In this document: in pieces, positions 25,346 to 29,948 of the stretch
Layout of the letters: each line of letters opens with the position of its first letter
How positions within the stretch are numbered: position 1 is the first letter of the stretch
Assembly (NCBI RefSeq): GCF_000420765.1
Contig: NZ_ATVO01000003.1
Span: 310,001 to 374,000 of the forward strand
DNA from: Sandarakinorhabdus limnophila DSM 17366
Lineage (GTDB): Bacteria > Pseudomonadota > Alphaproteobacteria > Sphingomonadales > Sphingomonadaceae
Reading direction: 5' to 3'
Length of the DNA: 64,000 bases
Position numbers and translations under genes: made by a program
Notes under the pieces: model-generated
Told to the model about the DNA's origin: nothing
What the model saw: only the letters and a program-made list of their open reading frames with translations
Database searches by the model: none

Positions 25346-27127
25346 TCAAATCCGCTCCTTCACATACGCCCCCGGCGCGTCCTCGATCGCCTTGTAGGGC
25401 CCCTCACCCGGCACGCGTGGTTTCACCTGTTTGCCTGAGCGGGGGGTGAGCCAGGTGAGCCAGTGGGGCCACCAGCTGCCTTTGGTTTCCGTGCCGCTGG
25501 CGATGAAATCGTCGAGGGTGGCGACGGTTGGGTCACCGATCCAGTGCTGGTATTTCGTGGCAGACGGCGGGTTGACGACGCCGGCGATGTGCCCGCTGCC
25601 GGCCAGCACGAAGCGGGTTTCGCCGCTGAAGGCCTTGGTGAGTTTGAAGGCCGATTTTGCCGGCGCGATATGATCTTCCTTGCCGGCCTGGATGAAGGTG
25701 GGGGTTTTCACGGTTTTCAGATCGATGGGCACGCCGCACACGGTGAGTGCGCCGGGTTGGACCATCAGGTTTTCGCGATACAGATCCTTGATATACTGCT
25801 GGTGCCATTTGGCCGGCACGTTGGTGGCATCTGAATTCCAATAGAGCAGATCGAAGGGGAAATAGTCTTTCCCCAGCATGTAGTTGTTGACGACATAGTT
25901 CCAGATCAGGTCGTTCGATCGCAGCAGGTTGAAGGTGGTGGCCATGAAGCGGCCATCGAGCACGTGTTTGTCTTCCGTCAGCTTGTCCAGCGTTTCGACG
26001 CTGGGATCATCGACGAAGAATTTCAGTTCGCCGGCATCGGCAAAGTCCACCTGGGCGGTGAAGAAGGTGGCAGAGGTGATCTGGCTGGCCTGCCCGCGGG
26101 ATTCGAGCACGGCCATGGTGGCGGCAAGTGTGGTGCCGGCGACGCAATAGCCGATGACGTGGGCGCCTTCGGTGTTGCAGATTTCGCGCGCCACGCGGAC
26201 GCCCTGCAAAATGCCTTCTTCGACATAGGTATCGATGGTGGCATCGGCGATGCTTTCATCGGCATTTTTCCAGCTGGCGATGAACACGGTGATGCCCTGT
26301 TCGACGGCCCAGCGGATGAAGCTTTTTTCGGCGGTAAGATCGAGGATGTAGAATTTGTTGATCCACGGCGGGTAGATCACCAGCGGCACTTCGTACACGG
26401 TTTCGGTGGTGGGCGTGTACTGGATGAGCTGCAGCAGGCGGTTCTGGAAGACGACCTTGCCCGGCGTGATGGCGACGTTGCGGCCGACTTCGAAGGCGTT
26501 TTCGTCGGTCATCTTCATGCGGCCGGTTTGCAGATCGCCGAGCAGATGTTCGAGGCCCCTGAGCAGATTGGCGCCGCCGGTTTCGGCCGTGGTTTTCAGC
26601 ACTTCGGGGTTGGTGAGCGCGAAGTTGGACGGGCTCATCGCGTCCACGAACTGTTTGATCAGGAATTGCGCCTTGGCCTTTTCGGCGGGTTCAAGCCCGT
26701 CAAGCTGGTGGGCGGCTTCCATGAAGTGGCTGGCGGTGAGCAGATAGGATTGGCGCAGGAAATCGAACGCGGGGTTTTGCGACCAGGCTTCATTCGCAAA
26801 GCGTTTGTCTTTGATCGTTGGCTTTTCGGCATCGGGGCTGAGGAAGTTTTTCCACAGCATCATGGCATCGGCCATGTACTTCTGCTGCTGTTCCATCAGG
26901 CGGGCCGGATCGGACATCAGGGCGGTGATCGCCTTTTGCCAGCCGGACATGAAGCCCATCGGATCGGTGACCATCGGCGTGGCGGCATGTTCCTTCGTCC
27001 AGAATTCCATCATCATCTGCTGGCCCTTGCCCATCAGATCGGTGAATTTCTGAAAGTTTTCCTGCGCTTGCACCTGGCGGGCGCCAAGATCGGTAGGGGA
27101 TTCGGACGGTACGGGCGTGGCAGTCAT
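25346..27127 (-). CDS. phaC: Class I poly(3-hydroxyalkanoate) synthase
   Basis: 593 residues. Polymerises 3-hydroxyacyl-CoA into storage polyester granules. The lipase-like box with catalytic Cys328 is GYCVAGTTL, followed by the catalytic Asp in YWNSDATNVPA and His in AGSGHIAGVVN. The length and the segment VPLVIYPPWINKFYILDL fit class I enzymes that act without a PhaE partner. ATG 27127 is chosen because AGGAG lies just upstream; the open frame continues 8 codons further. No phaA, phaB or phasin gene is adjacent. Confidence 0.96.
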   Translation of the reverse strand: MTATPVPSESPTDLGARQVQAQENFQKFTDLMGKGQQMMMEFWTKEHAATPMVTDPMGFMSGWQKAITALMSDPARLMEQQQKYMADAMMLWKNFLSPDAEKPTIKDKRFANEAWSQNPAFDFLRQSYLLTASHFMEAAHQLDGLEPAEKAKAQFLIKQFVDAMSPSNFALTNPEVLKTTAETGGANLLRGLEHLLGDLQTGRMKMTDENAFEVGRNVAITPGKVVFQNRLLQLIQYTPTTETVYEVPLVIYPPWINKFYILDLTAEKSFIRWAVEQGITVFIASWKNADESIADATIDTYVEEGILQGVRVAREICNTEGAHVIGYCVAGTTLAATMAVLESRGQASQITSATFFTAQVDFADAGELKFFVDDPSVETLDKLTEDKHVLDGRFMATTFNLLRSNDLIWNYVVNNYMLGKDYFPFDLLYWNSDATNVPAKWHQQYIKDLYRENLMVQPGALTVCGVPIDLKTVKTPTFIQAGKEDHIAPAKSAFKLTKAFSGETRFVLAGSGHIAGVVNPPSATKYQHWIGDPTVATLDDFIASGTETKGSWWPHWLTWLTPRSGKQVKPRVPGEGPYKAIEDAPGAYVKERI

Positions 27128-27246
27128 TGGGGTGATCTCCTGATATCGCACCTTGCCCCTTGTGACGGGGCTTTGCCAAGCCGGCCATTTCAGCTAACGG
27201 CGAATTTGCTGGCACAGCGTGTGCCGGCTGCAAGGGCGTTCCACCT

Positions 27247-27342
27247 GTGACCAATCGTGCCACCATCATTGCGGCAATTGCCGGCGCTGCATCAGCAGCC
27301 GCCGCAGCTGCAACTGTGGCCGCAGGAGCGCCGCCGAGCTGA
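27247..27342 (+). CDS. Candidate alanine-rich leader peptide upstream of alaC
   Basis: A 31-codon open frame from GTG to TGA in which 15 codons are alanine (6 GCA, 5 GCC, 2 GCT, 2 GCG), including six in a row at codons 17-22. It begins MTNRATIIAAIAGAA. AAGGG lies 10 nt before the GTG. It is not in frame with alaC and ends 98 nt before it, just ahead of a terminator-like hairpin. The arrangement fits a regulatory leader peptide rather than a functional protein. Translation is not proven. Confidence 0.6.
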   Translation: MTNRATIIAAIAGAASAAAAAATVAAGAPPS

Positions 27343-27413
27343 GAGTTTCGCAACATTCGAACTCTCCAACCGGCGGCGGCGGAACAAAATGGTTCCTCCG
27401 CCGCTTTTCTTTT
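27329..27413 (+). promoter_or_regulatory. Candidate transcription attenuator of alaC (antiterminator/terminator)
   Basis: A 13-bp stem with one mismatch (27373-27385 with 27392-27404) around AAAATG is followed by TTTTCTTTT, a good intrinsic terminator only 28 nt before the alaC start. Its 5' side CGGCGGCG (27371-27378) can pair instead with CGCCGCCG at 27329-27336, which covers the last leader codons. A further 7-bp stem, GAGAGTT/AACTCTC (27341-27347/27360-27366), lies between. A ribosome stalled on the alanine codons would leave the antiterminator free; one reaching the stop would cover it. Confidence 0.6.
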
Positions 27414-27440
27414 GTCCACCTGTTGCCTAAGGACGCAGCC

Positions 27441-28652
27441 ATGCAGGACGATTTCTACCGCATCAAACGTTTGCCGCCCTATGTGATCGCGGAAGTGAAC
27501 GCCATGCGGGCCGCAGCGCGGGCCCGGGGTGACGACATCATCGATCTGGGCATGGGCAATCCCGATCTGCCGCCGCCGCCGCACGTGATCGCCAAGCTGG
27601 CCGAAGTGGCCGCCAAGCCCGATGCGCATGGATATAGCGCATCCAAGGGCATCGCCGGGCTGCGCCGCGCGCAGAGCGCCTATTATGAGCGGCGGTTCGG
27701 CGTGGATGTTGATCCCGAAACCGAGGTGGTTGTCACGCTGGGTTCCAAGGAGGGCCTGGCCAATCTGGCGCAGGCGATCACCGCGCCCGGTGACGTGGTG
27801 CTGGCGCCCAACCCGTCTTATCCGATCCACACGTTCGGCTTCATCATTGCCGGCGCGACCATCCGCAGCGTGCCGACAACGCCGGATGAGAAATATTTCG
27901 AGGCGCTGGAAAGGGCGGTGCGGTTCACTGTGCCGCGGCCGAGCGTGCTGGTGATGGGTTACCCGAGCAACCCGACTGCCGAGGTCGCCGATCTGGCCTT
28001 TTATGAGCGCGTCGTGGCGTTTGCGAAGAAGCATAATATCTGGGTGCTTTCCGATCTGGCCTATTCGGAAATCTATTTCGACGGCCAACCCACCCCGTCC
28101 ATCCTGCAGGTGCCGGGTGCCAAGGACGTGGCGATCGAGTTTACCTCGATGAGCAAGACCTATTCAATGGCTGGCTGGCGCATCGGCTTTGCGGTGGGCA
28201 ACAAGACGCTGATTTCGGCGCTGACCCGGGTGAAGTCTTACCTGGATTATGGCGCCTTCACGCCAATCCAGGCGGCGGCCGTGGCGGCGCTGAATGGCCC
28301 GCAGGATATCGTGCAGCAGAACCGCGAGCTGTATCACCGCCGCCGCGACGTGATGGTGGAAGCCTTTGGCCGCGCCGGGTGGGATATCCCGCCGCCGCGC
28401 GCCAGCATGTTTGCCTGGGCACCGCTGCCGCCGGCACTGGCGCATCTGGGCAGCCTGGAATTCTCCAAGCAATTGCTCACCGAAGCCGGCGTCGCCGTGG
28501 CGCCGGGTGTGGGTTATGGCGAGGATGGCGAAGGTTTCGTGCGCATCGCACTGGTGGAAAATGAACAGCGCCTGCGCCAGGCCGCGCGCAATATCCGGAA
28601 ATATCTGCAATCGATGGGCGTCAACACGCCTTCCGCCAACGCGGGATCCTGA
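27441..28652 (+). CDS. alaC: Alanine transaminase of the AlaC type (class I/II aminotransferase)
   Basis: 403 residues. It closely matches E. coli AlaC as I know it, including RLPPYV, GEDII/GDDII-like IIDLGMGNPD, HGYSASKGI, GSKEGLA and NPSYPIH. The PLP lysine is Lys239 in TSMSKTYSMAGWRIGF. AlaC converts pyruvate and glutamate to alanine; homologues are often labelled LL-diaminopimelate aminotransferase, so the substrate is not certain. ATG 27441 follows an attenuator-like structure. The homoserine dehydrogenase gene begins 4 nt after the stop, so both are probably controlled together. Confidence 0.88.
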   Translation: MQDDFYRIKRLPPYVIAEVNAMRAAARARGDDIIDLGMGNPDLPPPPHVIAKLAEVAAKPDAHGYSASKGIAGLRRAQSAYYERRFGVDVDPETEVVVTLGSKEGLANLAQAITAPGDVVLAPNPSYPIHTFGFIIAGATIRSVPTTPDEKYFEALERAVRFTVPRPSVLVMGYPSNPTAEVADLAFYERVVAFAKKHNIWVLSDLAYSEIYFDGQPTPSILQVPGAKDVAIEFTSMSKTYSMAGWRIGFAVGNKTLISALTRVKSYLDYGAFTPIQAAAVAALNGPQDIVQQNRELYHRRRDVMVEAFGRAGWDIPPPRASMFAWAPLPPALAHLGSLEFSKQLLTEAGVAVAPGVGYGEDGEGFVRIALVENEQRLRQAARNIRKYLQSMGVNTPSANAGS

Positions 28653-28655
28653 ACC

Positions 28656-29948
28656 ATGGTGACGCCGTTGCGGATCGGGATTGCAGGCCTGGGCAATGTG
28701 GGCGCTGGGTTGGTGAAGATCCTCACCGCCAACGCTGAGCTGGTGGCGAAGCGCGCTGGGCGGCCGATCGTGGTCACCGCCGTTTCGGCGCGCGATCGCA
28801 GCCGGGATCGCGGCGTGTCGCTCGACGGCATCGCCTGGGTGGATGATGCGGCCGAACTGGCCACCCGCGACGATGTCGATGTGGTGGTGGAATTGATCGG
28901 CGGCAGCGACGGCCCGGCACTCACGCTGGCGCGGCGCACGCTGGGCGCAGGCAAGCCGCTGGTGACGGCCAACAAGGCGATGCTGGCCCATCACGGCCTG
29001 GAACTGGCCGAAGCGGCCGAGAAAGCCGGCCTGCCATTGAATTATGAAGCCGCCGTGGCCGGCGGCATCCCGGTGATCAAGGGCCTGGCCGAAGGCGCGG
29101 CCGCCAACCGCATCACCCGCGTTTATGGCCTAATGAACGGCACCTGCAATTATATCCTGTCGCGCATGGAAGCCGAAGGGCTGGGCTTTGGCGACGTGCT
29201 GGCCGACGCGCAGGCGCTGGGTTTTGCCGAGGCTGATCCCAGCTTTGATATCGACGGCATCGATACCGCGCACAAACTTTCGATCCTCGCCGCGCTGGCC
29301 TTTGGCGCGCGCATCGATTTTGCCGGCGTGGCCTGCCATGGCATCCGCAATGTCGCCGCCGCCGATATCGCGCAGGCCGCCGCACTGGGCTTCCGCATCA
29401 AGCTGGTCGGCCTTGCCGAAGCCGAGAATGGCGAATTGTTCCAGCGCGTCCATCCGGCGCTGGTGCCGATCGATCACCCGATTGCCACCACCATGGGCAG
29501 CCTGAACGCCGTGGTGGTGGAAGGCGATTTCGTGGGCCGGTTGTTCTTCCAGGGCCGCGGTGCCGGCGAAGGGCCAACCGCCAGCGCCGTGGTGGCTGAT
29601 CTGGTCGATATCGCCCGCGGTGATGTGCGGCCGCCGCTCGTGATGCCGGTGGCTGATCTGGCTGCCCTGCCCCGCGCGCCCGCAGCAGACCGGCGCGGGC
29701 GTTATTATCTGCGCCTGTCCGTGGCGGATCGCGCCGGCGTGCTGGCGGAGCTGACAGCGGCCCTGCGCGACAGCGGTGTTTCCATCGAAAGCCTGCTGCA
29801 GCGCGGCACCTCCAGCGACGGCGATGCCATGGTGGTGATGGTCACGCATGAAGCCCGCGAAGCCGATGTGCTGGACAGTCTGGCCCGCATGGCGGCCTCG
29901 CCAGCGGTGAGCGGGCAGCCGGTGATGATGCACATCCTTGATTTCTGA
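28656..29948 (+). CDS. hom: Homoserine dehydrogenase
   Basis: 430 residues. Reduces aspartate semialdehyde to homoserine, the branch point to threonine and methionine. N-terminal Rossmann motif GIAGLGNVGAGLVKIL, then KPLVTANKAMLAHHG, NYEAAVAGGIPVIKG and NGTCNYILSRME. The C-terminal ACT domain (YYLRLSVADRAGVLAELTAA) is expected to mediate feedback control by threonine. It is a monofunctional enzyme without an aspartokinase domain and is almost certainly co-transcribed with alaC. Confidence 0.97.
   Translation: MVTPLRIGIAGLGNVGAGLVKILTANAELVAKRAGRPIVVTAVSARDRSRDRGVSLDGIAWVDDAAELATRDDVDVVVELIGGSDGPALTLARRTLGAGKPLVTANKAMLAHHGLELAEAAEKAGLPLNYEAAVAGGIPVIKGLAEGAAANRITRVYGLMNGTCNYILSRMEAEGLGFGDVLADAQALGFAEADPSFDIDGIDTAHKLSILAALAFGARIDFAGVACHGIRNVAAADIAQAAALGFRIKLVGLAEAENGELFQRVHPALVPIDHPIATTMGSLNAVVVEGDFVGRLFFQGRGAGEGPTASAVVADLVDIARGDVRPPLVMPVADLAALPRAPAADRRGRYYLRLSVADRAGVLAELTAALRDSGVSIESLLQRGTSSDGDAMVVMVTHEAREADVLDSLARMAASPAVSGQPVMMHILDF

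Follow-up and report, generated by a model that had tools for sequence, protein, structure and literature searches.

A short alanine-rich reading frame and an intrinsic terminator lie directly in front of an alaC-like aminotransferase gene and hom in Sandarakinorhabdus limnophila DSM 17366. Does this region control the two genes by transcription attenuation, and is alanine the signal? Leader-peptide attenuation in proteobacteria controls the his, trp, phe, thr, ilv and leu genes. To our knowledge, alanine is missing from the usual list of amino acids whose genes are attenuated by leader peptides in proteobacteria. The window analysed here is the whole stretch of 64,000 nucleotides that carries the locus. 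A preliminary description of it, made from the sequence alone, had proposed that scarcity of alanyl-tRNA stalls the ribosome on the leader and switches on alaC and hom. The best reading of the locus is a ribosome-mediated transcription attenuator that would read the supply of alanyl-tRNA before alaC-hom, and the sequence comparisons below make this reading fairly probable. Alanine is most likely the signal, judging by the composition of the leader. The architecture of the proposed alanine attenuator is backed by comparison among relatives, whereas alaC may have a promoter of its own downstream and the best NCBIfam model names the enzyme an LL-diaminopimelate (LL-DAP) aminotransferase.

Table 1. 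Features of the alaC leader region, with positions in the window
Feature	Position	Strand	Basis or remark
Promoter-like pair CTTTGC + GCTAAC(G)	27171..27199	+	spacing 16 to GCTAAC, 17 to CTAACG
5' UTR hairpin GGCACA-GCG-TGTGCC	27211..27225	+	sequence
Shine-Dalgarno-like AAGGG of the leader	27232..27236	+	10 nt before GTG
Alanine-rich leader reading frame	27247..27342	+	31 codons, 15 Ala; GTG at 27247, TGA at 27340-27342; Pro-Pro one codon short of the stop
Run of six Ala codons (codons 17-22), proposed stall site	27295..27312	+	sequence, ribosome-position scan
Antiterminator 5' strand CGCCGCCG	27329..27336	+	within the last codons of the leader; core GCCGCC
Hairpin P2	27341..27366	+	arms 27341-27347 and 27360-27366; overlaps the leader stop; lies inside the antiterminator
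Antiterminator 3' strand CGGCGGCG	27371..27378	+	common to the terminator 5' arm
Intrinsic terminator with tract TTTTCTTTT	27373..27413	+	fold -25.2 kcal/mol; one G-C/A-U pair changed on both sides; stem 27373-27385 with 27392-27404, tract 27405-27413
Conserved TTGCCTAAGG(A), left half of the YTGCCTAAGGCAR palindrome of the relatives	27423..27433	+	TAAGGA in Shine-Dalgarno position for alaC
alaC-like class I/II aminotransferase gene, presumed regulated	27441..28652	+	profile match
hom, homoserine dehydrogenase gene, presumed co-transcribed	28656..29948	+	3 nt downstream of alaC

The leader, MTNRATIIAAIAGAASAAAAAATVAAGAPPS, was found base for base as first described, with 15 alanine codons among its 31 and six of them consecutive (Table 1). 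In all six frames of the 64-kb window it is the sole open reading frame of 20-45 amino acids that has at least 40% alanine and an alanine run of at least five. A poly-GCA pattern gave no match in its own genome. GCA accounts for six of the 15 alanine codons of the leader. The suggestion that GCA is less favoured in this genome agrees with the counts of A- or T-ending alanine codons, whose share is 8 of 15 in the leader and, across six genes nearby, 53 of 404 (Fisher P 0.0004). Upstream of the frame, most relatives carry, by eye, CCGGC/GCCGG-type repeats at the position of the 5' UTR hairpin.

AlaC is present in all 24 genomes of the genus, and the leader unit in 12 of them (L001-L011 and L024). 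The open leader frame and its start codon are kept in all 12 of these loci, the start being GTG in nine and ATG in three. Each of the 12 has a Shine-Dalgarno-like pentamer 5-10 nt 5' of the start, in L007 solely by virtue of CGGGA. The leaders are 25-33 residues long and contain 12-17 alanines. Peptide sequence and length drift among the relatives, and the alanine content remains high. In a protein-guided alignment of 11 of the 12 loci (L003 excluded), synonymous and non-synonymous codon differences number 407/574 in frame versus 115/796 and 58/806 in the shifted frames. A frame-blind alignment of six of the 12 loci points in the same direction less strongly, with 46/91 in frame versus 30/109 and 3/124 in the shifted frames.

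The 13-bp terminator stem with one mismatch and the 8-bp alternative pairing, both proposed beforehand, are present base for base. The single mismatch among the 13 stem positions is C.T, and CGCCGCCG pairs with CGGCGGCG over 8 bp with no mismatch. The terminator does precede the alaC ATG, and 27 bases separate its end at 27413 from the ATG at 27441, where the earlier figure was 28. A consensus scanner called neither a terminator nor a sigma-70 promoter in 27100-27480; the mismatch in the stem probably accounts for its missing the terminator. Rfam covariance models, those for the T-box included, gave nothing in 26000-29000 beyond chance-level matches to snoZ206, sR43 and mir-981, up to E 5.

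The same two alternative folds are predicted throughout the leader-bearing loci. A terminator with TTTTCTTTT occurs in all 12, with energies of -22.8 to -25.2 kcal/mol. In the nascent RNA, before the 3' arm of the terminator is added, all 12 fold into a long hairpin of -23.7 to -34.3 kcal/mol in which GCCGCC and the terminator 5' arm are paired. P2 is nested in this hairpin, and its 5' side overlaps or adjoins the leader stop in every one of the 12. Relative to dinucleotide shuffles of the upstream 60 nt, the nascent fold has z values of -1.56 to -3.77 in the 12 leaders, and the shuffle fraction is below 0.05 in 11 of them and 0.077 in L007. The controls were leaderless loci of the genus with a terminator at the same place, and their z values lie between -1.23 and +0.64. 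Of the 12 loci of the genus that lack the leader, ten served as controls, L013 and L014 being set aside as not comparable; the arm used for L020 is uncertain. Two of these controls have alanine-rich short frames, namely L021 (z +0.55) and L023 (z -1.23).

Covariation was examined in two alignments. In alignment A1, which has 11 distinct rows, 97.9% of the cells of P2 and the terminator are standard pairs, and 10 cells carry a change on both sides, against a shuffle mean of 3.4; none of 500 shuffles attains either value. Slid controls for the same structures give at most 63.6% paired and 2 such cells. The stricter measures on A1 are not significant: three pairs are changed on both sides (162 of 500 shuffles) and seven further pair types are found (392 of 500). 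One terminator pair is compensated, being G-C in seven rows and A-U in four, and two pairs of P2 are compensated in A1, two to three over all the analyses. A permutation test that reassigned entire P2 arms within a set of 10 of the 12 loci gave P 0.00005, the arms being anchored at the predicted closing pairs, which biases the result towards structure; L003, the same stretch as L001, and L006, with a shifted hairpin, were excluded.

For the antiterminator, 89.3% of the cells of alignment A2 are paired and seven carry a change on both sides, a number that none of 500 shuffles attains. The values for changed pairs and pair types are weak, being reached by 35 and 44 of 500 shuffles. Sliding the antiterminator by -2 lowers the paired cells to 41.1%, yet this control exceeds the structure in changed pairs (6 vs 3), cells (8 vs 7) and types (11 vs 9). 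Compensation in A2 is confined to P2, and the pairs of the outer stem are invariant or broken. Covariation appears to support both P2 and the terminator well, and the outer antiterminator stem would be a case of conservation without covariation. GC-rich alanine codons readily pair with a GGCGGC arm, which counts against the attenuator reading.

Two promoter-like elements flank the leader and the terminator. Upstream, CTTTGC is found in 11 of the 12 leader loci, and in 10 its distance to the start of the leader frame is 65-76 nt. The exceptions are L006, whose copy is 41 nt before its ATG, and L010, which has CTGGCG. A TA-containing hexamer follows CTTTGC after 16-17 nt. Downstream, TAAGG is present in all 12 loci, about 28 nt before the alaC ATG except in L001-L003. 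By eye, a -10-like GTAAGG stands at the matching distance before alaC in several Sphingomonas loci. Since the conserved TAAGG matches the position of this GTAAGG, a putative alaC promoter may follow the terminator. In L001-L003 about 20 nt before the alaC ATG are missing, and TAAGGA takes the Shine-Dalgarno place. If TAAGGA acts as a Shine-Dalgarno sequence there, the alaC message should start further upstream in the lineage of the window. The alternative for L001-L003 is a nearly leaderless alaC message.

The downstream element belongs to the most probable rival explanation, namely an independent small gene whose product is the alanine-rich peptide, with the hairpin as its own terminator and an alaC promoter around TTGCCTAAGG. 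We consider this unlikely. The near-constant distance of TAAGG from the alaC ATG outside L001-L003 would suit such a promoter, but no -35-like site is seen 16-18 nt before TAAGG, and in the window's own lineage TAAGGA is in the Shine-Dalgarno position. Most leaderless members of the genus do have a separate small secreted-type gene and a terminator at this place, and CTTTTCTTTTG-like terminator tails follow unrelated genes in the family. Behind an ordinary gene, however, P2 and the antiterminator would be unexpected, and the ten controls have no comparable folding. The drift of the peptide under a persistently high alanine content also counts against the small-gene reading.

The end of the leader carries a second signature. 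Poly-proline motifs slow ribosomes. Pro-Pro is found in all 12 leaders, zero to four codons from the stop (codons 27331-27336 in the window), and Pro-Pro-Pro in eight. The codon preceding Pro-Pro ends in G in 11 of the 12, and the residue there is A, T, R, G or V. Because the G-ending codon persists in 11 of 12 despite five different residues, GCCGCC appears to be held as RNA.

Attenuator switches rely on kinetic trapping, and the ribosome positions were scanned by equilibrium folding, with the end of the footprint set 12 nt past the start of the A-site codon. With the ribosome at the leader stop, the terminator has a probability of 1.0 in all 12 loci in this equilibrium scan. When the A site occupies the final codons of the alanine stretch, the antiterminator reaches at least 0.8 in nine of the 12. 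In L004, L005 and L007 almost every position favours the terminator; codons 7-8 of L004 give a balance, and L007 forms neither structure at codon 14. Stalls in the middle of the run favour the terminator in L001, L003, L008, L011 and L024, and with a ribosome held at Pro-Pro the terminator stays favoured, again by equilibrium folding.

The Pro-Pro motif near the stop in every leader, extended to Pro-Pro-Pro in two thirds of them, could belong to an attenuator that senses translation generally, responding to antibiotics or to proline/EF-P status via Pro-Pro and not to alanine specifically, and a ribosome stalled anywhere before the switch might have the same effect. The scan goes against a role of this kind, since the ribosome at Pro-Pro leaves the terminator favoured, and a general sensor would not call for 12-17 alanine codons ahead of a gene for an AlaC-group transaminase, with the rare ones enriched in the window's own leader. 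We hold such a general sensor to be quite improbable. Chance, that is, a spurious alanine-rich frame in GC-rich DNA before an ordinary terminator, is the most improbable reading of all and is disfavoured: the unit is limited to one clade and the leaderless L021 and L023 also have alanine-rich short frames with no strong antiterminator, but the frame is the sole one of its kind in 64 kb, frame, start and Shine-Dalgarno-like site are kept in 12 of 12 loci, and the folding exceeds that of shuffles and is accompanied by compensatory changes.

An attenuator that reads alanyl-tRNA would work as follows. Transcription would start at the promoter near 27171-27199, and the ribosome would trail RNA polymerase, translating the alanine-rich leader. 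With ample alanyl-tRNA, the ribosome should reach the stop and cover CGCCGCCG together with the 5' side of P2; the terminator at 27373-27413 is then computed to form, and transcription would stop short of alaC. With scarce alanyl-tRNA, the ribosome would stall near the end of the alanine run. CGCCGCCG and P2 could then capture the terminator 5' arm, and alaC-hom would be transcribed, as computed for nine of the 12 loci and presumed for the rest. The Pro-Pro(-Pro) motif may keep the ribosome on top of the switch as long as alanine is abundant, or it may merely reflect the pairing constraint on GCCGCC.

The identity of the enzyme bears on the signal. The alaC-like gene had been described as encoding an alanine transaminase. 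Its product does belong to the LL-DAP aminotransferase/alanine transaminase group, but the best model is that of the LL-DAP aminotransferase, NCBIfam PRK09148 (754.3 bits, cut-off 648), and the alanine transaminase model PRK08175 stays below its cut-off (584.1 bits, cut-off 647). The database name, LL-diaminopimelate aminotransferase, conflicts with the alanine in the leader composition. A dapD gene is present in the same genome, barely above the cut-off (377.2 vs 375.4 bits), and lysine synthesis thus need not depend on the alaC-like gene. No alanine dehydrogenase scores above the cut-off in this genome. The presence of dapD and the lack of an alanine dehydrogenase over the cut-off agree with an alanine role for the alaC-like gene. 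The alaC leader, if real, would show from the side of regulation what the enzyme truly acts on, where database name and leader disagree, and if the reading is true, the gene family PRK09148 (LL-diaminopimelate aminotransferase) would move to alanine synthesis.

The alaC leader shares several traits with the classical attenuators of proteobacteria. Both have a short open reading frame with a run of regulatory codons and a terminator before the first gene, and in both the antiterminator uses the terminator 5' arm, and a ribosome that has reached the stop would mask it. Unlike the classical attenuators, the alaC leader has alanine codons and Pro-Pro near the stop. We noticed in it no protector hairpin of the kind that forces termination in untranslated RNA, and its one hairpin at the stop lies within the antiterminator. 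The leaders in Rfam, the T-box among them, are likewise cis-acting leaders before amino-acid genes, and they differ in that no such covariance match is found in 26000-29000.

The closest parallel comes from another phylum. PMC11550727 describes actinobacterial whiB7/wblC as having an upstream open reading frame (uORF), a Rho-independent terminator and an antiterminator, with attenuation also under amino acid starvation. PMC13236596 reports uORF stalling at whiB7 and counts aspC, a gene of alanine biosynthesis, among the members of the regulon, and PMC10727445 states that WhiB7 is required in alanine starvation. The whiB7/wblC uORF has in common with the alaC leader a leader reading frame, a terminator, an antiterminator and a link to alanine starvation. 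The difference is that whiB7 is a transcription factor gene, whereas the alaC switch stands directly before an enzyme gene. The earlier remark that no alanine version was known is too wide, as the mycobacterial whiB7 leader reading frame and regulon are tied in these papers to amino acid or alanine starvation. A literature search that lay largely outside the subscription literature and the 2004 survey of proteobacterial attenuators turned up no alanine attenuator described upstream of alaC, nor one from the proteobacteria, and the word alanine is absent from the main texts of PMC2965389 and PMC1262725. One further candidate, PMC5039519, is unrelated; there, the Trp codons of trpL were swapped for alanine codons in a reporter. 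The alaC leader would thus be a new variety of a well-known type of control, with the whiB7/wblC uORF as its nearest known case.

The distribution of the leader unit is narrow, a single clade, and this speaks against the attenuator reading. Outside the 24 genus genomes it was found in three of 80 further named loci (L025-L027), whose 300 nt upstream are identical to those of L002, L008 and L010. In a tree of alaC, built without the partial gene of L024, the eleven leader-bearing rows form one clade with support 100/100, adjoining the leaderless L014 and L013. The terminator pattern, with up to 3 mismatches, occurs in seven of 397 genomes of the family, all from the same genus, where it is present in seven of 11 sampled genomes. 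The RNA model R1, which was built from the 12 leader sequences and matches them by construction, scores above 80 bits in 12 of the 24 genus genomes. Other matches within the genus have at most 33.5 bits, and several of these weak ones are the same terminators read on the opposite strand. Among 147 genomes of the order R1 gave 14 matches, two from the same genus above 100 bits and 12 others of at most 44.1 bits. At eight weak R1 loci inspected (L163-L170), no alanine leader before alaC was noticed. In L163 and L168, from other Sphingomonadaceae, a similar terminator with a CTTTTCTTTTG tail lies behind Flp-pilin-like frames.

At the level of the class, 29 alaC loci (3 from the same family and 26 from other families, the best 29 of 135 genomes with a match among 289) contain no open reading frame of at least 10 codons at 30% alanine, and seven of the 29 have a crude terminator-like hairpin. 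Among L042-L104, some of which have less than 400 nt upstream, an alanine run of at least five occurs in a frame of one of 63 (L091). Three of the 14 loci L028-L041 have alanine-rich frames (L029, L034 and L036), which are the same as those of L016, L021 and L023. The check for conservation in relatives that was suggested at the outset turned out in favour of the leader within the clade, with frame and structures kept in 12 of 12 leader-bearing genomes, and the unit is absent from the other relatives searched.

The leaderless sister L014 is informative on the origin of the unit. Its intergenic region upstream of alaC is about 120 nt, versus about 313-343 nt in six of eight leader loci measured (L008 and L024 have no clear phaC start). 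A CTTTGC site stands 60 nt upstream of alaC in L014. The position of this site and the short intergenic region fit the gain of a leader module between promoter and gene. A wider claim would be that this is the first attenuator to read alanine by a leader peptide directly before the gene of an alanine-making enzyme, that it arose a single time, in one clade, between a promoter and a gene older than itself, and that it is equipped with a poly-proline brake; we put this forward tentatively, and with somewhat more doubt than belief. With 12 versions sequenced, a switch that is restricted to one clade and has sister species without the leader makes a good case for studying the origin of such devices.

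Other leaderless loci show what else can occupy the leader position. L012, L015-L020 and L022 have there a gene for a small secreted-type protein with two Cys, followed by a terminator. Most of these small proteins contain an alanine-rich stretch, and those of L017 and L022 have a Thr run in the tail. The one such protein tested gave no Pfam match. Short alanine-rich frames, without a strong antiterminator, precede the terminator in L023 (identical to L036) and L021 (identical to L034). These short frames are possible forerunners of the leader.

The surroundings of TAAGG also differ among the leader loci. A perfect palindrome, YTGCCTAAGGCAR, is centred on TAAGG in L004, L005, L007-L011 and L024, with a T-A/C-G exchange at its ends. 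L006 has a variant of it, and L001-L003 have lost the right half. The 24 genomes contain nine exact sites, eight of them at alaC, which rules out a regulon-wide operator role. As RNA, the palindrome, which is nearly unique to the alaC locus, would form a weak hairpin of -3.9 to -5.5 kcal/mol.
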